Assembly: GCA_030693515.1 (NCBI GenBank) | Contig: JAUYAK010000023.1 | Coordinates: 1-53,001, forward strand | Direction of reading: 5' to 3' | DNA length: 53,001 nucleotides | DNA from: Opitutaceae bacterium | GTDB taxonomy: Bacteria; Verrucomicrobiota; Verrucomicrobiia; Opitutales; Opitutaceae | Shown here: positions 29,955 through 39,172 of the stretch, piece by piece | How the letters are laid out: every line of letters starts with the position of its first letter | Position numbering within the stretch: the stretch's first letter is position 1 | Translations under genes and position numbers: made by a program | Notes under the pieces: generated by a model | The model's input: only the letters and a program-made list of their open reading frames with translations | Databases searched by the model: none | What the model was told of the DNA's origin: nothing

Positions 29955-30012
29955 AGCCCGCAACGGCGCCTTGACTCGGCGCCGCCCAACAGCCTTCTTC
30001 ACCGCCGTTCCC

Positions 30013-30123
30013 ATGAACCTCGCCACCACGACGCTTTCCTCGCGCTTCGCCCACGCCTCCGTGGTCGTCGTCTCCGTCGTGGCCGTTATTTCCGCCGTTA
30101 CTGGCGCACCGCGAGGCTCGTAA
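30013..30123 (+). CDS. valine-rich leader peptide (ilv-type attenuator ORF)
   Basis: This 36-codon ORF reads ATG AAC ... TAA. Its second half is SVVVVSVVAVISAV (residues 16-29), giving eight valines and one isoleucine in 13 codons (residues 17-29). This closely recalls the E. coli ilvB leader, which also has a run of valines near its end. The stop is followed 17 nt later by a perfect intrinsic terminator. The 8-mer CCACGACG at 30026-30033 is complementary to CGTCGTGG at 30075-30082, inside the valine codons, so ribosome stalling there could alter RNA folding. No branched-chain amino-acid gene follows. The peptide is recognised from layout and composition, not from homology search. Confidence 0.55.
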   Translation: MNLATTTLSSRFAHASVVVVSVVAVISAVTGAPRGS

Positions 30124-30140
30124 TCGTCGAAACGACTTTT

Positions 30141-30175
30141 GCCCCTCCGGTGCCAAACCGGAGGGGCTTTTTTTT
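30141..30175 (+). terminator. Intrinsic terminator / attenuator after the leader ORF
   Basis: GCCCCTCCGG (30141-30150), a seven-base loop TGCCAAA, CCGGAGGGGC (30158-30167) and then eight T residues (30168-30175) form a perfect ten-base-pair intrinsic terminator on the plus strand. It lies 17 nt after the leader stop and 41 nt before the ATG at 30216. No clear competing anti-terminator was found by eye. It could alternatively just end the ThuA transcript. Confidence 0.92.
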
Positions 30176-30215: not shown

Positions 30216-30440
30216 ATGAAATCGCCCACGCTCCTCGCCCTCCCCCTGCCCGCCGATCCCACCCGGCCCGCCGATCCCACCCGGCCCGCGCCGCTCCGCG
30301 AACGCGCCCCATGGCCCGAGCCCGCCCACCTGCGGCCGTTGTGGCGCCCCACCCCGGCAGGTCACGATCTCCTCGTGCCGAATCCGCGGCCCGATCTCAC
30401 CACCGATCCGCATACGTTGCTGATGCTGGAAACCGGCTGA
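30216..30440 (+). CDS. hypothetical 74-residue protein
   Basis: This short ORF lies directly after the attenuator-like unit and ends 23 bp before the stop of the convergent RND gene. It is proline rich and contains the repeat ADPTRP twice, encoded by an exact 18-bp tandem repeat (30253-30270 and 30271-30288). There is no signal peptide, membrane segment or known motif. A polar C-terminus (DLTTDPHTLLMLETG) looks more protein-like than the start. Without a homologue, it may be a real small protein or chance coding in GC-rich DNA. Confidence 0.35.
   Translation: MKSPTLLALPLPADPTRPADPTRPAPLRERAPWPEPAHLRPLWRPTPAGHDLLVPNPRPDLTTDPHTLLMLETG
30253..30288. repeat. 18-bp tandem repeat, two copies
   Basis: CCGATCCCACCCGGCCCG occurs twice head to tail with no mismatch. 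The length is a multiple of three, so it adds six residues per copy to the small ORF without shifting the frame. It is a likely site of copy-number variation. Confidence 0.85.
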
Positions 30441-30463: not shown

Positions 30464-33400
30464 TCACTCCGCCCGACTCGCCCGGCCCACGCCCGCGGCG
30501 GCGCCGCCCGAGGCCGGGGTCGCGGCGTCCTTGGCAAATATCGACGCCCAGATGCGGCCGGTGAACTCCCGCAGATCGTCGAGCAGCGCGTAAAGCAGCG
30601 GCACGATCACGAGAGTCAGGAGCGTCGAGGCGAGCAGGCCGCCGATCATCGTGCGGCCGAGCGGCGCGTAAGCCATGCCCACGACCTTCGAGGTGCCGAG
30701 CGCCATCGGAATCAGGCCGCAGACGGTCGTGAGCGTGGTCATCAGAATCGGGCGGAAGCGCGCGCGGCCGGCCTCCACCAGCGCCTCGAACCGCGCCTTG
30801 CCCTCGGCCCGCAGACGGTTCGCCATGTCCACGAGCACGATCGCGTTGTTGACCACCACGCCGACCAGAATCACGAGGCCGATGCGCGCCATCATGTCGA
30901 GCGGCGTCTCGGTGAGATAGAGTGTCCACACCACCCCGAGGTAGGCGAACGGCACCGCGATGATGACCGCCAGTGGCAGCACGAACGACTCGAAGAGCAG
31001 CCCCATCAGCAGAAACACGAACACGATCGCGAGCGCGCCGGCGAAGCGCATCGCCTTGTCCTGTTCCGAAATGTCGCGGAACTCGCGGCCCTTGTCCCAG
31101 CGGTAGCCGCGGGGCATCTCGAAATCCGCCATCGCCTTGTCCACCGCCTCGAACAGCCGGCGCGAGTCCGCGCGCGGAGCCTTGGCCGTAATTTGCAACA
31201 TCGTCTGCCGGGCCTCGCGCCGGATCGAGCCCAGCGTGCGCGAAACGCGCAGATCAGCGATCGACTCGAGCGGCACCTCGATGCCCGCGTCGGTGCGGAA
31301 AGTCATGCCCCGCACATCGTCCAACCCCGCGCGGTCGGCCTCGCCGAGCTGGGCAAAGATGCGCAGCTCGCGGCCGTCCGCCCCGGGGAAACGGCCGACC
31401 TCCTGGCCGCGCATCGAGTAGCCGATGCCACTGGAGACCGCCCGCGGGTCCACGCCGAGGCGCCGCGCGCGGTCCCGATCGAGCTGCACCTGCAGCTCCT
31501 GGCCGCCGCGTTCGCTGTCGATGTCCACGCCCACCAGACCTGGGATGCCGCGGAGGCGCTGCATCGCCTCCTCCGCGATCTGGAGGAGCGTGCCGGTGTC
31601 TTCCCCGTAAAGATTGATCGACATGCCGGCATCCTGCACCCCGCCGCCGCCCGTGGAGCGGCCGCGCTGGACGATGCCGGCCGGCAGTTTGAACTTCTCG
31701 CGAAAGTCCGCTTCGATGTCGTTGCGGTCCATCGGACCGGGCTTGGGCTCCAGCCCGAAAAGGCCCTGCACCCGGCGCGCGAGGTCAGTGCGCACGAACG
31801 AGTCCCACGCGCTCGCATACCACTGGGTGCGGGTGTTGTCGCGCAACCGGATCTGGATGCGGCCGTTGTTGTAGGTGAACCGCGTCTCGACGCGGTCGAA
31901 GTTGTAGCGCGCGGCGTTGGCGGCGAGGAACCCCTCGACCTCCAGGAAAAAGGCCTCGGCCCGTTCCAGCGTGCCCCCCGAGGGCAGCTCAAACATGAAA
32001 TACATGGTGGTCTCGCCACTGCCGCCGAATCCGCCGGTCGGCATGCGCAGCTTCGAGTGGGCATAGGGCAGCGTCCACATCAGGGCGCCCACGACGACGA
32101 GTGACTCGATGCGGTGCGTCAGCACCCAGCGCAGGGCGACGGCATAGCGGTCCCGCGCCCAGCCCACGGCGCGCAGCTCCGGATGCTGCCGGCCGCGCGA
32201 GAGCCGCTGCGCCGCCAGCGGCACAAAAATCAAAGCGATGAAAAGCGACGCGACCAGTGAAACAATCACCGGCAAGCCGAGCCGGAGCATCCAGAACGAG
32301 AAATCGCCCCCGCCCTGCATCAGGATGAGCGGCAGAAAGACCACGATGGACGTGAACGTGGACATCACCACCGCAAGCCCGACCTCGCCAGCGCCGACAA
32401 TGGAGGCCCGCGTCGCCTCCACGCCTTCCTGCCGCAACCGGTAGATGTTCTCCACGATCACGATCGAATTGTCCACGACCATGCCGGTGGCGAGCATCAG
32501 CCCCATCATCGTGGCGATGTTGAGCGACCAGCCGCTGAAAAACAGCGCGACGATGGTGCAGAGCAGCGACAGCGGGATCGACAGGGTCAGGATGCCCGTC
32601 ATCCGCGGTGCGCGCAGGAAGAGGTAGATGATCAGCGCGGCAAACATGCCGCCCCACAGCCCGGTGTCGGCGAGATTGTCGATCGATTGGCGAACCTGCA
32701 CACCCTGGTCGAAGAACACGTTGAACTGCATGCCAGCGAGCTGAGGCAGCTTGGGGAGTTCGGCGATCGCCGCGCGCACCTCGCGGCTGATGCGCTCGAT
32801 GTTGCCGGTCGAATCGCGCGTGATCTGGATGCCGATCGCCGGCTGGCGGTCCACGCGATAGACCGTTTCGCGGCGCGGGGGCCGGAGCTGCACCCGGGCG
32901 ACATCGCTCAGCCGCAGCCGCCGCTCCGGATCGATGATGATCGCGGCGATATCCTCGACGGACTGGAAGCGCCCCATCGATCGCACGTAAATCTTGCGGC
33001 CGCCGTCCATCACCCAGCCGCCCGAGATGGCGAAGTTCTGGTTGCGCAGCAGGGCGAGCATCGTGCCCACATCGATGCGATGGCTGCGCAGGCGCTCATC
33101 GATCAGTTCGACCTGAATCTCGCGCGACTGCGTGCCCCAGATCTCGACGTTGCCCACGCCCTCGATGCGCTGCAGCACCGGCTTCATGTAGTGCTCGAGC
33201 CGGAACGCCGCGTCGTCCATGCCCGGCGGGATCGAGGCGACGAGGTTCATCATCGGCGCGTCGTTCTGGTCGTAGCGCCGCACATCGATGCGATCGATTT
33301 CATCCGGCAGGAGCGGTTTCACCCGGTCCATGCGATCGGTGAGCAGCGCGTAGGAGGCGCGCAGGTTGGTGCCGGTCTGGAACTCGACGCGCACGTTGCT

Positions 33401-33724
33401 GTAGCCGTTGTAGGAGTAGCTGGTCAGGCGCTTCACGTTCGGCACGGTGCCGATGATGTCCTCGATCTTGCGGGTCACCTTCTCCTCCACATCGCGCGGC
33501 GAGGCGTTGGGGTAGCGCGTGAAGATGCTGAGCTGGTTGCCCTCGTAGCCCTCCGGGTAGAGCGCGAGCGGGATCCGGCGCAGCGCGATGAAGCCCACCA
33601 CGAGGATGGTCGCCAGGATCATCACGACCGTCACAGGCCGCGACACCGCGAAGCGCGGGATGCGATACGCGGCGGGCTCGCGCGGCGCGGGCGCAGGCGG
33701 GGGCATGGCGGCGGGCGCGCTCAT
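30464..33724 (-). CDS. RND efflux transporter (AcrB/MdtC-like)
   Basis: This 1,086-residue inner-membrane pump uses the proton gradient to expel compounds. It has the RND plan: a first membrane helix at about residues 30-50, a large periplasmic loop, a block of helices (GMFAALIIYLFLRAPRM, LMLATGMVVDNSIVIVENIY), a second half repeating the pattern (ALAIVFVFLLMGLLFES, IGLVILVGVVVNNAIVLVD) and a terminal helix (LLASTLLTLVIVPLLYALL). The VVDNSIVIVEN and VVNNAIVLVDM motifs are the proton-relay helices. The start at 33724 overlaps the preceding RND stop (ATGA), so both pumps are made together, as in MdtBC-type pairs. Substrate unknown. Confidence 0.9.
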   Translation of the reverse strand: MSAPAAMPPPAPAPREPAAYRIPRFAVSRPVTVVMILATILVVGFIALRRIPLALYPEGYEGNQLSIFTRYPNASPRDVEEKVTRKIEDIIGTVPNVKRLTSYSYNGYSNVRVEFQTGTNLRASYALLTDRMDRVKPLLPDEIDRIDVRRYDQNDAPMMNLVASIPPGMDDAAFRLEHYMKPVLQRIEGVGNVEIWGTQSREIQVELIDERLRSHRIDVGTMLALLRNQNFAISGGWVMDGGRKIYVRSMGRFQSVEDIAAIIIDPERRLRLSDVARVQLRPPRRETVYRVDRQPAIGIQITRDSTGNIERISREVRAAIAELPKLPQLAGMQFNVFFDQGVQVRQSIDNLADTGLWGGMFAALIIYLFLRAPRMTGILTLSIPLSLLCTIVALFFSGWSLNIATMMGLMLATGMVVDNSIVIVENIYRLRQEGVEATRASIVGAGEVGLAVVMSTFTSIVVFLPLILMQGGGDFSFWMLRLGLPVIVSLVASLFIALIFVPLAAQRLSRGRQHPELRAVGWARDRYAVALRWVLTHRIESLVVVGALMWTLPYAHSKLRMPTGGFGGSGETTMYFMFELPSGGTLERAEAFFLEVEGFLAANAARYNFDRVETRFTYNNGRIQIRLRDNTRTQWYASAWDSFVRTDLARRVQGLFGLEPKPGPMDRNDIEADFREKFKLPAGIVQRGRSTGGGGVQDAGMSINLYGEDTGTLLQIAEEAMQRLRGIPGLVGVDIDSERGGQELQVQLDRDRARRLGVDPRAVSSGIGYSMRGQEVGRFPGADGRELRIFAQLGEADRAGLDDVRGMTFRTDAGIEVPLESIADLRVSRTLGSIRREARQTMLQITAKAPRADSRRLFEAVDKAMADFEMPRGYRWDKGREFRDISEQDKAMRFAGALAIVFVFLLMGLLFESFVLPLAVIIAVPFAYLGVVWTLYLTETPLDMMARIGLVILVGVVVNNAIVLVDMANRLRAEGKARFEALVEAGRARFRPILMTTLTTVCGLIPMALGTSKVVGMAYAPLGRTMIGGLLASTLLTLVIVPLLYALLDDLREFTGRIWASIFAKDAATPASGGAAAGVGRASRAE

Positions 33725-36700
33725 TTGGCGAGCGGCACGGGTTGGCCGGTCGGGGCCATGGCTTCGACTGGCGCGGAACCACGCTGACCGGGGAAGAGGT
33801 AGTAAAGGGTCGGGATGACGACGAGCGTCAGCAGCGTCGAGGCGCTGAGGCCCACGACCACGGTGACGGCCATCGGCGCGCGGATTTCAGCGCCCTCGCC
33901 CAAGCCGAGCGCCATCGGCACGAGGCCGAGCACCGTGGTCAGCGTTGTCATCAAAATGGGCCGCAGGCGCGCGCGCCCGGCCTCGGTGATGGCCGTCTCA
34001 AGCGCCAGTCCGCGGTCGCGCAGGGTGTTGATGTAGTCGATGAGGACGATCGCGTTGTTCACCACAATGCCGGCGAGGATGATAAGGCCGAGAAACACCA
34101 TGATGCTGATCGGAATGCCGGCGATCCACAGCGCGATGATGACACCGACCAGCGCGAGCGGCACCGTGGCCATGATGAGGAGCGGCTGGAGCAGCGACTC
34201 AAACTGGCTCGCCATGACGATATAGACGAGGAACAGCGCGAGCGCGAAGGCCAGCAGCAGGCTGTTGAGCGAGGTCTGCATCTCCTTGTTCTGGCCGGCG
34301 ACAACGTAGGTGAACCCGGCGGGAAATTCCAGACCGTCGAGCGCCGTCACGATGTCGCGCGACACCGTCGAGAGATCGGCGTCGCGGAGATTGGCCGTGA
34401 TGAGCGCGGTGCGCTGCTGATCCACGCGGCGGATCTCGCTCGGGCCCTCGTTGATCGTGAGGTCGGCCACGACCGCGAGCGGGATGGGCACGCTGCCGGA
34501 GGGGTTCACGATCAAGTTGCGCAGTTCCTCGATGCCAAGGCGGTCCTGTTCGCGCAGCCGCACTACGATGTCGATCATCTGGTCCTCCTTGCGGAACTCC
34601 GTCGCCGTGCGGCCCTGGACCTTGTTACGCACGAGATCGGCGACGCTGCGGAGATTGAGGCCATACTCCGCGAGCCGATCGCGCTTGTAGACGACTTGGA
34701 TCTCCGGGTGGCCGCTCTGGAGGCTGGAGCGCACATCGACGAGCCCGGGCACGGTCTCGGCCAGCAGCGCCTCGGCCTCGCGGCTCAGGCGCTTGAGGAG
34801 CACAAGATCATGGCCGCGAATCTCGACCTCCACGGGACTGCGGAAACTGAACAGCGTGGGATAGGAGACCTCGATCTTGGCCGCCGGGAGCTCACGAAAC
34901 CGCTCGCGGATGCGGTCGATGAGGTCCGGCTCCGCGTCTGACGGCAGGCCGGATTTCAACTTCACGCTGAGCCTCGCCGTATGCTCGCCCGCCGAGATTG
35001 AGGTGCTGGCGCCCTCCTCGGCGCCGACGGTGAGGGCGGTGCGCTCGACCTCCGGCTGCACCCGCACGGCATCGTCGATCTGCGCGACCACCTCGGCCGT
35101 GCGTTCCAGCGGCGTGCCGATGGGCAGCGTGACATCGAGGTTGAACTCACCCTGGTGCACCTGCGGGATCAGCTCCTTGCCCAGGCGCGGCACGAGGACG
35201 AACCAGCATACGAGAAACGCCGCCACTGAGCCGCCCAGCACGGCATGGCGCCGCCGCAGAGCCACGGCGATGAGGCGCGGATAGAACCGTTGCAGGCGTT
35301 GGAACAGGCGCTCGAAGCCGTCGAGCCCGCGGCCCGCCGCCGAGCCACCCAGCACGGCGGCAAGTCGCCCGACGCCCAGCACCAGCACTGCGACCGCCAG
35401 CAGCGCCGCCAGCACGATCGAGCCCACCAGCCGCAGCACGACCTCGGCGACCGCACGCATGAGGCTGAAGGCTAGCGGCACCGCGCCGGGCACGAAGAGA
35501 ATCACCAGCCACCACCACGGCTGCACCACGAGCCAATGCCAGACGGACAGATGCAGCGGCTTCAACGGTGGCAGGGCTGAGGCACTGGCGCCAAAAATCT
35601 GCGCCACCGGCGGCACCGTGACCCCTTTCGAAAAATACAGCACCGCGCCCACCGCGAGAGCCGGCAGCACGAGCAGCCCGATCCAGCGCCAGTGCCGCGC
35701 CGTGAGCCAGCCCCACGTGCCGCCCAGACCCGCGGCCAGCGTGGCCGGAGCAGAAAACGAAAGCAGCCCCGGCCATATCCGCGCGCCCTCGATCCGCCAG
35801 AGGCGGTCGGCGGTGGCCCAGGCCGTAAAAGCCGGCCACCACGCGCGCATCCCGCGCCACGCGAAAAGGGAAATCCCGGCGAGCAGCGGCCAGAGCAGCA
35901 GGAAAGCGACGACCGCCAACGCCTTGAGCACCACGGCGACGATCAGGACAGGCACCCACGCGATCCGGCCCATTGCGAGCCCGGCGATGCGGCCGAGCTG
36001 CCGCGCGACACCCGCGCCCGCGGGCGCAGGCGTGAAGCCCAGATAGGCGCTCGTCTGCGTGCGCCAGCCCGTCGCCGGCGCCTCGAACTTTCGCGAGGCG
36101 AGCATCGGAATCAAAAACAGCGCGGTGCCGAGCGAGGCGAGCAGCGAGAACACGACCGTGAGCGCCATGTCGCCAAACACCTGTCCCGCCACGCCCTCGA
36201 CAAAGACGATGGGCAGGAAGACCGCGACCGTCGTCAGCGTGGAGGCCCCGACCGCCATGCCGACCTCCTGGGTGCCGCGCACGACGGCGGTCTGGAGCTC
36301 ATCGCCCTCCTCGCGACAACGAAAAATGCTCTCAAGGACGACGATGGCGTTGTCCACCAGCATGCCCACGCCCAGCGCCAGGCCACCCAGCGAGATGATG
36401 TTGAGCGAGACCCCGGCCATGTGCATCGGCGCAAAGGTCGCCACAATCGAGATCGGGATGCTGAGGCCGATGATGAGGGTCTGCACGAGATTGCGCAGAA
36501 ACAGGTAGAGCACGATCACCGCGATGATGGCGCCGGAGATGGCATTGTTCTTCACCTCATCGATGGACTTGCTGATGAAGACCGATTGATCGGCGAGCAG
36601 CTCGACGGTGGCGCCGGGCGGCAACTGCTGGCCGATGAAGGCCGTCATCTGCCGGCGCGTGATTTGCTCCTGCGCGGCGGCCCGCAGGCGCTCCACCTCG

Positions 36701-37878
36701 GCGAGGGCGGCCTTGCGGGACTCAAGCTGAGCCGCCTCGGCGCGGGAACGCGCCGAGCCCGCGGAGGCCTTCTCCGTTTTCTTCGAGCTGCTGGAGCGGC
36801 TGCTTTCGCCCTTGCCGCTCGCGACGACCTTCATATCGAAGACGGAGGAGGCGCCGCGCTTTTCGCGCGCCGCGAGGGCGGCAGGACTGTTCTCGCCGGC
36901 CTTGTCGCGCGCAATCCAGGCCTGCTGCTCGGCCGTGCCGAAGAGCGCGTTGCGCACGGTCTCGGCGACCTTGACGATATTGGCGTCGGCCTCCTTGAAG
37001 ATTTCGATTTCGACGCTCTCGCGGCCGTTGACGCGCGTGATGACATCGCGGTCCTTGTGAAAACGCGTGACCGTGGCGATGTCGCGCAGGCGGATATCGA
37101 CGGCGTTGTTGCTGCGCGAGATGATGAGGGCGCCGATCTCCTCGATGGTTTTGAATTCGTTGAGCGTGCGGATGACGTATTCCGTCTGGCCCTCGCGGAG
37201 ATTGCCGCCGGGCATGTTGACGTTGCCCGACTGGAGGCGCTGGCCGATCTGCGTGATGTCGAGGCGGAGCTGGGCGAGCTTGCTCTCGTCGATGGCGACG
37301 AGGAACTGCTCCTCAAGGCCGCCCTTCACCTGCACGGCGGCGACGCCGTTGAGCGACTCCAGCCGGCGCTTCACCTCGTGCTCCGCGAGGTGGCGGAGTT
37401 CGAAAAGCGACTGCGGGCCGGCGAGCCCCACGCGCAAAATCGGATCCAGCGAGGGATCAAAATGCAGGAGCAGCGGGCGCTGCGCGCCCTCGGGCAGGCG
37501 GAGCCGGTCGATTTTCTCGCGGACCTCCTGGGCGACGAGATCCATGTCGGTCTTCCACTGGAACTCGAGCATCACATCGCTCTGCCCGGCTTTCGAGACG
37601 GAGCTGATGGAGACGAGCTTGGGGATGACGCCCAGCTGCTGCTCCAGCGGCCGGGATACGACGCTCTCCATCTCCTCGGGCGCGGTGCCGGGATAGACCG
37701 TGCGCACCGTGAGCGTGGGATAGCTCATGTTGGGCATGAGCGTGAGCGCGAGCCGCTGGTTCGAGACCCAGCCGAAGACGACCACCGCCAGCACGACCAT
37801 GAGGATCGAGACAGGGCGGCGGACCGTGAAGGCGTAGAATGAATCCTCGGCCCGGAACTTGACGGGAGGTGTGCTCAT
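33721..37878 (-). CDS. RND efflux transporter with two unusual insertions
   Basis: This 1,385-residue RND pump is well above the usual 1,020-1,080. It has the normal features (first helix at about 20-38; LALGVGMLVDNAIVVLESIF; LIILAGIVVNNAIVLIDYIN). Two extra blocks are visible. The first (about residues 313-410) is charged and Ser/Lys/Ala rich, with SSRSSSSKKTEK and a long Glu/Arg/Lys helix, and lies in the periplasmic part before the second helix. The second (about 600-850) lies between the two halves and adds about five hydrophobic segments rich in tryptophan. The start at 37878 (MSTPPVKF) is chosen because upstream in-frame residues overlap the MFP gene. It forms an operon with the MFP (34-bp gap) and the second RND. 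Confidence 0.85.
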   Translation of the reverse strand: MSTPPVKFRAEDSFYAFTVRRPVSILMVVLAVVVFGWVSNQRLALTLMPNMSYPTLTVRTVYPGTAPEEMESVVSRPLEQQLGVIPKLVSISSVSKAGQSDVMLEFQWKTDMDLVAQEVREKIDRLRLPEGAQRPLLLHFDPSLDPILRVGLAGPQSLFELRHLAEHEVKRRLESLNGVAAVQVKGGLEEQFLVAIDESKLAQLRLDITQIGQRLQSGNVNMPGGNLREGQTEYVIRTLNEFKTIEEIGALIISRSNNAVDIRLRDIATVTRFHKDRDVITRVNGRESVEIEIFKEADANIVKVAETVRNALFGTAEQQAWIARDKAGENSPAALAAREKRGASSVFDMKVVASGKGESSRSSSSKKTEKASAGSARSRAEAAQLESRKAALAEVERLRAAAQEQITRRQMTAFIGQQLPPGATVELLADQSVFISKSIDEVKNNAISGAIIAVIVLYLFLRNLVQTLIIGLSIPISIVATFAPMHMAGVSLNIISLGGLALGVGMLVDNAIVVLESIFRCREEGDELQTAVVRGTQEVGMAVGASTLTTVAVFLPIVFVEGVAGQVFGDMALTVVFSLLASLGTALFLIPMLASRKFEAPATGWRTQTSAYLGFTPAPAGAGVARQLGRIAGLAMGRIAWVPVLIVAVVLKALAVVAFLLLWPLLAGISLFAWRGMRAWWPAFTAWATADRLWRIEGARIWPGLLSFSAPATLAAGLGGTWGWLTARHWRWIGLLVLPALAVGAVLYFSKGVTVPPVAQIFGASASALPPLKPLHLSVWHWLVVQPWWWLVILFVPGAVPLAFSLMRAVAEVVLRLVGSIVLAALLAVAVLVLGVGRLAAVLGGSAAGRGLDGFERLFQRLQRFYPRLIAVALRRRHAVLGGSVAAFLVCWFVLVPRLGKELIPQVHQGEFNLDVTLPIGTPLERTAEVVAQIDDAVRVQPEVERTALTVGAEEGASTSISAGEHTARLSVKLKSGLPSDAEPDLIDRIRERFRELPAAKIEVSYPTLFSFRSPVEVEIRGHDLVLLKRLSREAEALLAETVPGLVDVRSSLQSGHPEIQVVYKRDRLAEYGLNLRSVADLVRNKVQGRTATEFRKEDQMIDIVVRLREQDRLGIEELRNLIVNPSGSVPIPLAVVADLTINEGPSEIRRVDQQRTALITANLRDADLSTVSRDIVTALDGLEFPAGFTYVVAGQNKEMQTSLNSLLLAFALALFLVYIVMASQFESLLQPLLIMATVPLALVGVIIALWIAGIPISIMVFLGLIILAGIVVNNAIVLIDYINTLRDRGLALETAITEAGRARLRPILMTTLTTVLGLVPMALGLGEGAEIRAPMAVTVVVGLSASTLLTLVVIPTLYYLFPGQRGSAPVEAMAPTGQPVPLAK

Positions 37879-37912
37879 GCGGCGGCTGGCGAGAGGGGGC
37901 GAGGCCGCGCGC

Positions 37913-39172
37913 TCAGGTTTTATGGGGGGCCGCGGCCGGGGCCGGCGGCTCCTTGGCGAGTCCGGCCTCCGGCTGGATCGGAACAGGCGCGAGGGCGTTG
38001 ACGGTCCGCACCACCGCGCCATCCTTCAAACCGGCATGGCCAACGACGATGACGTGCGTGCCGGGCTCGACGCCTGCGATGGCCTCGATGTTTTGCGGGT
38101 CCTCGTAGCCGGCCTGGAGTTTGCGCTTCGACGCGATCTCGTTCGTGACGGTGAAAAAATAACGTTCGCCGCCCTCGTAAACGATCGCGCGCTTGGGCAC
38201 GAGCAAGGCGTCGGGGCGCGTCTCGGTGATGATGCGGACGTTCACAAACAGCCCCGGCGGCAGCTCCGCGGGCTTTTCGCCGCGCACGCCCACGGTGACC
38301 TTGAAGGTGCCGCTCTTGGGATCGATCACCGGGCTGATGCGCTTGACCCAGCCCTTGAAGATGCGGTCCGGCAGGAACTCCGAGGTCACCACGGCGGGCT
38401 GATCCAGTTTGACGACCGATAGGTAGCGACCCGGCACGAACACGCGGCCGACGATCTCGTCGAGCTTCACCATCGAAAAGAGCTTGGTGCCCGAGGCGAC
38501 CCGCGCGCCCACCTGCGCCTCGCGGGTGGCGATCACCCCGTCGAATGGCGCGCGGACCGTCGTGTAGGAGTGGCGCAGCGTCGCGCGCTCGTAGCGGAGG
38601 CGGGCCTGCTCCAGCTGGTAGTTCTGGTTTTCGTGGTCCTGCTTGTTGATCAGCTTGGAAGCGAAGAGTTCCTCGGAGCGGGAGAAGTTGCGCTTGAGCT
38701 GCTCGTAATTGGCGCGGCTCTCGTCGGCATCGATGCGCATCTCGGTGTCCTCGATTTTCAGGAGCGGATCGCCGGCCTTCACGATCTTGCCCTCCTCGAC
38801 GAGGAGCGCCTCCACCTGCCCGGTGGTCTGGGGGAAGATGTCCACCATCGCCTCGGTCTCGAGGGTGGTGTTGAAGGGCAGAAAAGCCGAGATCGGGCCG
38901 CGCACGATGGCGGCGGTCTCGACCGGCACGCGCTCCAGCGTGCTCTGCCGCGGACGCTCGCCATCGGCAGGCCGGCGTTGCACCGGTGTGGCCGGGGCGG
39001 TCGCAGTCGCGGTGTTGGCGGCGACCGCAGGCGTGGCTGGCTGAGTGGAAGGAGCGGTCGCGGCCGACGGCGACGGGCTGCGATCGCATCCGGCGGCCAA
39101 ACCAATGAGGGTCGCCGCGCCGACGCGCGCAGCTAGAAGTCGCAATTCTGAGAACAACACGGGATTAATCAA
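37913..39172 (-). CDS. RND membrane-fusion lipoprotein (HlyD/AcrA family)
   Basis: This periplasmic adaptor of about 419 residues links the RND pumps to an outer-membrane channel. It has a lipobox (LIGLAAGC, Cys at about residue 29), a Pro/Thr/Ala-rich linker, then lipoyl half-motifs (VDIFPQTTGQVEALLVEEGK and TVRAPFDGVIATREAQVGAR) around a coiled-coil hairpin (about 150-205), beta-barrel and membrane-proximal domains (LVPKRAIVYEGG). No ATG lies near the signal; the frame opens at TTG (39172), and GTG at 39160 or TTG at 39145 are also possible, so the start is uncertain. No outer-membrane TolC-like gene is adjacent. Confidence 0.85.
   Translation of the reverse strand: MINPVLFSELRLLAARVGAATLIGLAAGCDRSPSPSAATAPSTQPATPAVAANTATATAPATPVQRRPADGERPRQSTLERVPVETAAIVRGPISAFLPFNTTLETEAMVDIFPQTTGQVEALLVEEGKIVKAGDPLLKIEDTEMRIDADESRANYEQLKRNFSRSEELFASKLINKQDHENQNYQLEQARLRYERATLRHSYTTVRAPFDGVIATREAQVGARVASGTKLFSMVKLDEIVGRVFVPGRYLSVVKLDQPAVVTSEFLPDRIFKGWVKRISPVIDPKSGTFKVTVGVRGEKPAELPPGLFVNVRIITETRPDALLVPKRAIVYEGGERYFFTVTNEIASKRKLQAGYEDPQNIEAIAGVEPGTHVIVVGHAGLKDGAVVRTVNALAPVPIQPEAGLAKEPPAPAAAPHKT

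Follow-up and report, generated by a model that had tools for sequence, protein, structure and literature searches.

The question raised by this locus is what a valine-rich attenuator controls when no ilv gene stands behind it. An attenuator is taken to serve whichever biosynthetic operon follows it, and the enterobacterial ilvB (ivbL) attenuator combines a valine-rich leader peptide with an overlapping antiterminator and terminator. The window analysed here is the whole stretch of 53,001 nucleotides from an Opitutaceae bacterium, in which a leader of this kind precedes a small open reading frame (ORF). With a probability of about 0.7, we read it as a working valine attenuator which descended from the ilvBN attenuator of the family, taken here as Opitutaceae, and which now controls a 74-residue microgene predicted to be a fused remnant of the operon.

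Leader, terminator and antiterminator in the window

The leader peptide ORF was found on the plus strand at 30013..30123, with the ATG at 30013, 36 codons and the TAA stop codon at 30121-30123. Its codons 17-29 comprise eight valine codons and one isoleucine codon, so that the valine control codons lie at 30061-30099 (+). The stop codon is followed after 17 nt (30124-30140) by an intrinsic terminator (30141..30175, +), in which GCCCCTCCGGT at 30141-30151 pairs with ACCGGAGGGGC at 30157-30167 around the loop GCCAA, followed by 8 T. Direct reading of the window confirmed what the original prediction had said of the 36-codon ORF, of its eight valines and one isoleucine within 13 codons and of the 17-nt gap. 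The same was true for the layout downstream, where the next plus-strand frame is the 74-residue ORF and convergent RND efflux genes come after it. The terminator, which had been described as a perfect 10-bp stem, was present as well, but its stem has 11 bp and its loop 5 nt.

Two features were absent from the original prediction, the antiterminator and the conservation of the 74-residue ORF. The 5' arm of the antiterminator, GCACCGCGAGG (30106..30116, +), encodes the C-terminal APRG of the leader peptide. It pairs with the 3' arm CCTCCGGTGC (30144..30153, +), which overlaps the 5' arm and the loop of the terminator, in 10 bp with one bulged base. When the unit was folded by RNAfold with the last arm withheld, the antiterminator pairing was obtained, and with the last arm present the terminator was formed. 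Like an ilvB-type attenuator, the unit has a short leader ORF rich in the relevant codons, an intrinsic terminator between the leader and the gene, and a mutually exclusive antiterminator made of the leader end and the terminator arm. A branched-chain amino acid gene was not found behind the terminator in the window. Rfam gave no match to the window at the gathering score, and between 29900 and 30500 just ten sub-threshold matches at E <= 10, mostly to sRNA models.

A promoter is predicted at 29971..29999 (+), with the -35-like TTGACT at 29971-29976 and a weak -10-like CTTCTT at 29994-29999. Of 143 units, 91 had the motif TTGAC[AT] close to the leader, at a median of 41 nt before the ATG, compared with 1 of 35 control windows further upstream. 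Given its recurrence at a fixed distance, the unit is predicted to have a promoter of its own with a very short 5' leader. The predicted start lies a few nucleotides before the ATG, and the leader peptide may come from a nearly leaderless mRNA.

The unit and the genes behind it in relatives

The original prediction had proposed a search of related genomes for the ORF-terminator pair together with a comparison of its neighbours. In blastn with 206 bases, part or all of the stretch was found in 18 of 57 genomes, the own genome included, a few of the weakest matches (e.g. G003) looking spurious. A covariance model built from 17 units then detected the unit in 149 of the 252 genomes of the family (E <= 0.01). 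The matches of both searches across relatives argue that the unit is more than a chance arrangement. In a sample of 240 genomes across the phylum, the model gave matches at E <= 0.001 in 17, of which 13 belong to the family; the four others were G386, where the match lies before ilvB, G276, which looked spurious, G425 and G410. A DNA pattern of terminator plus antiterminator was found in 53 stretches of named genomes, 46 of them titled Verrucomicrobia, Opitutae or Opitutaceae-type; the 7 stretches from other phyla are probably due to chance.

We read 145 units, namely the listed covariance-model matches with E up to 6.2e-8; five listed places with weaker scores, and all that were unlisted, were left out. 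A short valine-rich ORF was correctly placed in 143 of the 145, a figure which favours the claim of valine richness because the script chose the ORF with the most valines. The leaders of the relatives have a median of 7 valines. In the leaders that precede a microgene, V makes up 20.8%, S 17.1% and A 16.1%; serine and alanine are nearly as common as valine, and valine is therefore not proven as the sole signal. That valine would be the signal is deduced from the leader codons and by analogy with known attenuators.

The terminator was paired in 97.6% of the cells across 17 units. For the antiterminator, an alignment of 101 matches, two of them probably spurious, had 94.6% of 1002 cells paired, versus 40.3-59.0% in slid controls, and a covariation score of 0.180 versus 0.024-0.058. 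Six pairs had changed on both sides, and neither this number nor the covariation score was matched by any of 500 shuffles. The version slid by +1 also had six such pairs, with 18 double-sided cells versus 15 in the true register, so that the support for the antiterminator comes from how many cells are paired and from the covariation score. In the initial set of 17 rows the antiterminator was paired to 97.1%, a value reached by 116 of 500 shuffles; none of its pairs had changes in both partners, and the covariation did not exceed that of the shuffles. RNAfold with the last arm withheld gave at least 7 bp between the leader end and the terminator arm in 138 of 139 units, versus 315 of 695 shuffled controls. 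Very probably, the attenuator is real.

Behind the terminator of the 145 units stood a microgene in 105, ilvB in 30 (two assigned via the ilvN behind it), ilvN alone in 1, an MFS-type gene in 3 and an unclassified gene in 1, and 5 units ended at a contig edge. A branched-chain gene is thus present behind the terminator in 31 of the 145 units of relatives (30 ilvB, 1 ilvN). The 105 microgenes are 104 found by script and one (G090) by eye; the 104 include those of G109, G265 and G213, which were retained by eye at a profile E of 2-11, and the weak members G074 (E 0.86) and G079 (E 0.25). The small ORFs are about 58-111 residues long and typically start 38-85 nt past the T run. By script count, they occur in 24 genera, ilvB in 17 and both in 7. 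Four genomes (G074, G079, G182 and G266) each have one unit with a small ORF and one with ilvB, and the small ORFs of G074 and G079 are the weak members named above.

Several units carry other genes. In G030 (L057) the leader stands directly before an intact ACT gene resembling ilvN, and ilvB is missing between the two; this is another rearranged ilv unit. A related leader-terminator with a different peptide precedes an MFS-type transporter of 410-413 residues in G247 (L235:446-1687), G250 (L250) and G253 (L261); the L235 protein had NCBIfam matches below the cut-offs only, and these units are possibly a third use of the attenuator. Closely behind the small ORF of two genera (L051 of G032 and L188 of G246) lies an ORF that we take to be PLP aminotransferase-like; some g38 units presumably have a YchJ-like ORF nearby and some g64 units a transglutaminase-like one.

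In G386, which belongs to another family of the same order, a valine-rich leader and a terminator precede ilvB. This suggests that the ilvBN attenuator arrangement is probably ancestral, the outgroup being one genome outside the family. On a leader tree of 102 columns only, the downstream gene changed at least 8 times, compared with 28 times when the labels were shuffled. The well-supported branches force only 2 changes, so the origin may have been single or repeated.

The microgene and its probable kinship with IlvB and IlvN

The microgene lies at 30216..30440 (+) and encodes 74 residues, or 96 when read from an upstream GTG at 30150. Its conserved core HDLLVPNPRPDL spans the residues 50-61, and the small proteins share the core HDFLV...RPDL. 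The motif [HN]D[FLM]L was present in 100 of the 104 ORFs versus 1 of 520 other frames of the same DNA, and G200 and G213 lacked it even in loose form. The small ORFs L153 (G265) and L092 (G109) stop just after HDFLV (...PVHQAPHGDSAHDFLVR or Q), which suggests HDFLV as the least part that is kept.

The 12-codon core had a pN/pS of 0.31 in 335 within-genus pairs, which are not independent. The 12 codons just upstream had 0.96 in an ungapped comparison of 338 pairs, where misalignment inflates the value. An earlier estimate from pairs with at least 60% protein identity was biased low and was superseded by the within-genus run. Between G000 and G018, the closest pair of relatives, the tail showed no amino acid change at a dS of 0.60. 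These ratios indicate purifying selection on the core, and the microgene can very probably be taken as a genuine gene under selection. A larger downstream gene that might have been missed was not seen, and the length of the small ORF is kept in the relatives.

A protein collection contained 86 proteins of the microgene family, all with the loose motif, and those with a name were called hypothetical. One of them (P0070, 147 residues) has the Pfam domain PF07883 within a longer ORF. Pfam gave no family at E <= 1 for the ORF of the window or that of G167, and no ACT domain was found in either, which speaks against an IlvN function in the usual sense. The AlphaFold model of the microprotein was uninformative (mean pLDDT 65.9, pTM 0.19, one short C-terminal helix at 65-72).

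The core resembles the IlvN tail of ilvBN units (HDVLSVSERPDLGPEFF in G002; HDFLVLNQRPDLTPEYF in G167). Against the IlvN profile the tail of G167 scored 14.4 bits. Of 5000 shuffles, 4170 gave a score and none did as well. The segment of IlvN behind the ACT domain was matched by G167, G123, G027 and others, with the ORF of the window outside the top matches listed. In AHAS I IlvN (2lvw, 6lpi), the core of the least diverged microproteins matches the segment at and after the end of the ACT domain, but the microprotein itself has no detected ACT domain.

The head was compared with IlvB. Here G167 did not match (-0.3 bits, with 285 controls as high), and P0005 scored 21.2 bits with residues 1-34 in exact register, the best of 1720 shuffles reaching 3.8. 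An IlvB-like start was found in P0005 and the members of genus g37. Among the 86 proteins, 10 were above all shuffles for the IlvB head and 10 for IlvN, nine of the latter at the tail. P0005, P0003, P0006 and P0008 were above all shuffles for both, the IlvB head preceding the IlvN tail along the chain. In the 104 ORFs, 22 exceeded the 99% shuffle level for the IlvN tail (7 above all shuffles) and 12 for the IlvB head (4 above all). A match in register near the head was seen in 10 of 84 scored ORFs versus 5 of 782 scored shuffles, where rows of one genus are not independent. A profile-profile comparison gave P = 0.0011 and a probability of 20.7% for IlvN, and with the full set nothing for IlvB. 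The weaker signals over the 104 ORFs are what one would expect of a short sequence whose middle changes freely. We infer that the microgene family arose as an IlvB head joined to an IlvN tail, through a deletion that ran from near the start of ilvB to near the end of ilvN. The ORF of the window would be linked to IlvB and IlvN via its family alone, and the kinship appears clear only for the slowly changing members.

A new small gene might instead have captured the ilvBN leader; the attenuator would then be real and the resemblance to IlvB and IlvN convergent. That different genes can come to stand behind the leader is shown by the ilvN alone in G030 and by the three MFS-type units, and 82 of the 104 ORFs (IlvN tail) and 92 of the 104 (IlvB head) were not above the 99% shuffle level. 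Against such a capture stand the exact register of P0005 with the IlvB start over 34 residues, the four proteins which beat all shuffles for head and tail with the chain order kept, and the excess of ORFs in register near the head, even with rows of one genus not independent. We regard the capture as unlikely.

Neighbourhood, proposed working and probable origin

We then compared the neighbours of the unit. In the window, two adjacent RND permease genes (30464-38022, minus strand, 1086 and 1433 residues) converge towards it, and the original prediction had speculated on a link to efflux. In the 17 neighbourhoods read, RND genes directly adjoined the unit in no genomes but G000 and G018; in G016 one gene lies between, and other members of the genus had different neighbours. 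The RND link of the unit was therefore rejected, since RND neighbours are limited to near relatives. ThuA adjoined the unit only in G000, G016 and G014. The original prediction had named, as a case against itself, a terminator that merely ends the ThuA mRNA; this is disfavoured by the adjacency in three genomes only and by the recurrent -35-like element, and a terminator belonging to thuA alone was rejected, as the upstream gene varies among relatives.

For Sinorhizobium rnTrpL/peTrpL, a small product derived from an attenuator, a role of its own has been proposed, and an action in trans is reported (PMC7298713). A leader peptide or a terminated leader RNA of the window could likewise act in trans, perhaps on efflux, and a leader RNA of about 170 nt would arise whenever the terminator works. 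A conserved link to efflux genes was not found in the 17 neighbourhoods, where the neighbours differ. Further, the downstream ORF is under selection, and the antiterminator arm that encodes APRG accounts for the conservation of this leader C-terminus, which makes a stand-alone leader quite improbable. Our unit resembles rnTrpL/peTrpL in having an attenuator-derived small product with a proposed role of its own, but the candidate product here is the gene behind the terminator.

The own genome has a separate ilvB without this leader, which the covariance model matches once in the genome, and an IlvH-type small subunit on another contig, so that the genome does not lack the enzyme. There the AHAS-I-type IlvB head had its best match at only 7.7e-16, and at least 34 matches in 120 genomes were at 1.2e-26 or better. 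Least probable of all is a decaying relict, a leader and operon stub persisting by chance without function, for which this separate ilvB with its IlvH-type subunit and the almost free change before the core (in the ungapped comparison) could be claimed, but the ORF is open in 105 units over 24 genera, the core has its low pN/pS and the antiterminator pairing is kept in nearly all cells.

Of the three options of the original prediction, a relict of a rearranged ilv operon agrees with the origin (leaders before ilvB in relatives, members with IlvB head and IlvN tail), and a control unit of the small ORF agrees with the present layout, in which the ORF lies right behind the terminator in 105 of 145 units. 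These two go together. The third, a leader RNA and peptide standing alone, loses weight because the downstream ORF is under selection.

In the attenuator, which likely controls the microgene, the ribosome would reach the leader stop codon and cover 30106-30116 when valyl-tRNA is ample. The terminator at 30141-30167 would then form and transcription would end. When valine is short, the ribosome would stall at the valine codons 30061-30099, 30106-30116 would pair with 30144-30153, and the blocked terminator would allow transcription of the microgene. An internal deletion may have reduced an ilvBN operon to a single chimeric microgene that kept the old attenuator. The product would be a disordered peptide whose IlvN-like tail binds acetohydroxyacid synthase or its regulatory subunit and tunes the valine feedback in starvation. 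Since the conserved part resembles the IlvN tail, our best guess is that the microprotein acts on acetohydroxyacid synthase as an IlvN-tail peptide. More tentatively, the operon may have shrunk to an attenuator and a chimeric microprotein with an IlvB head and an IlvN tail, kept by the family as a starvation-induced regulator of the housekeeping acetohydroxyacid synthase. The attenuator would then be the sensor for a regulatory microprotein and not for an enzyme.

The unit is like the ilvB (ivbL) attenuator in its valine-rich leader and overlapping antiterminator and terminator, and relatives have an AHAS I-type ilvB/ilvN behind it. It differs in belonging to another phylum and in that the window and 105 of 145 units have a microgene only and no enzyme gene. 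Leader-peptide control of an ilvB operon is also described for the Corynebacterium ilvBNC attenuator/uORF (PMC10272879, PMC11857589), but there the ilv operon is still in place. Among the open-licence papers listed, there was no published account of such a unit or small-protein family.

In most units read there is no biosynthetic operon behind the attenuator, yet the attenuator and a small coding piece with a selected core persist in 24 genera. If the reading is true, it would describe a small-protein family so far labelled hypothetical or unlabelled in the sources examined, and it would offer a way to test the role of the IlvN tail. It would also show a route by which an operon collapses into a regulated microprotein.
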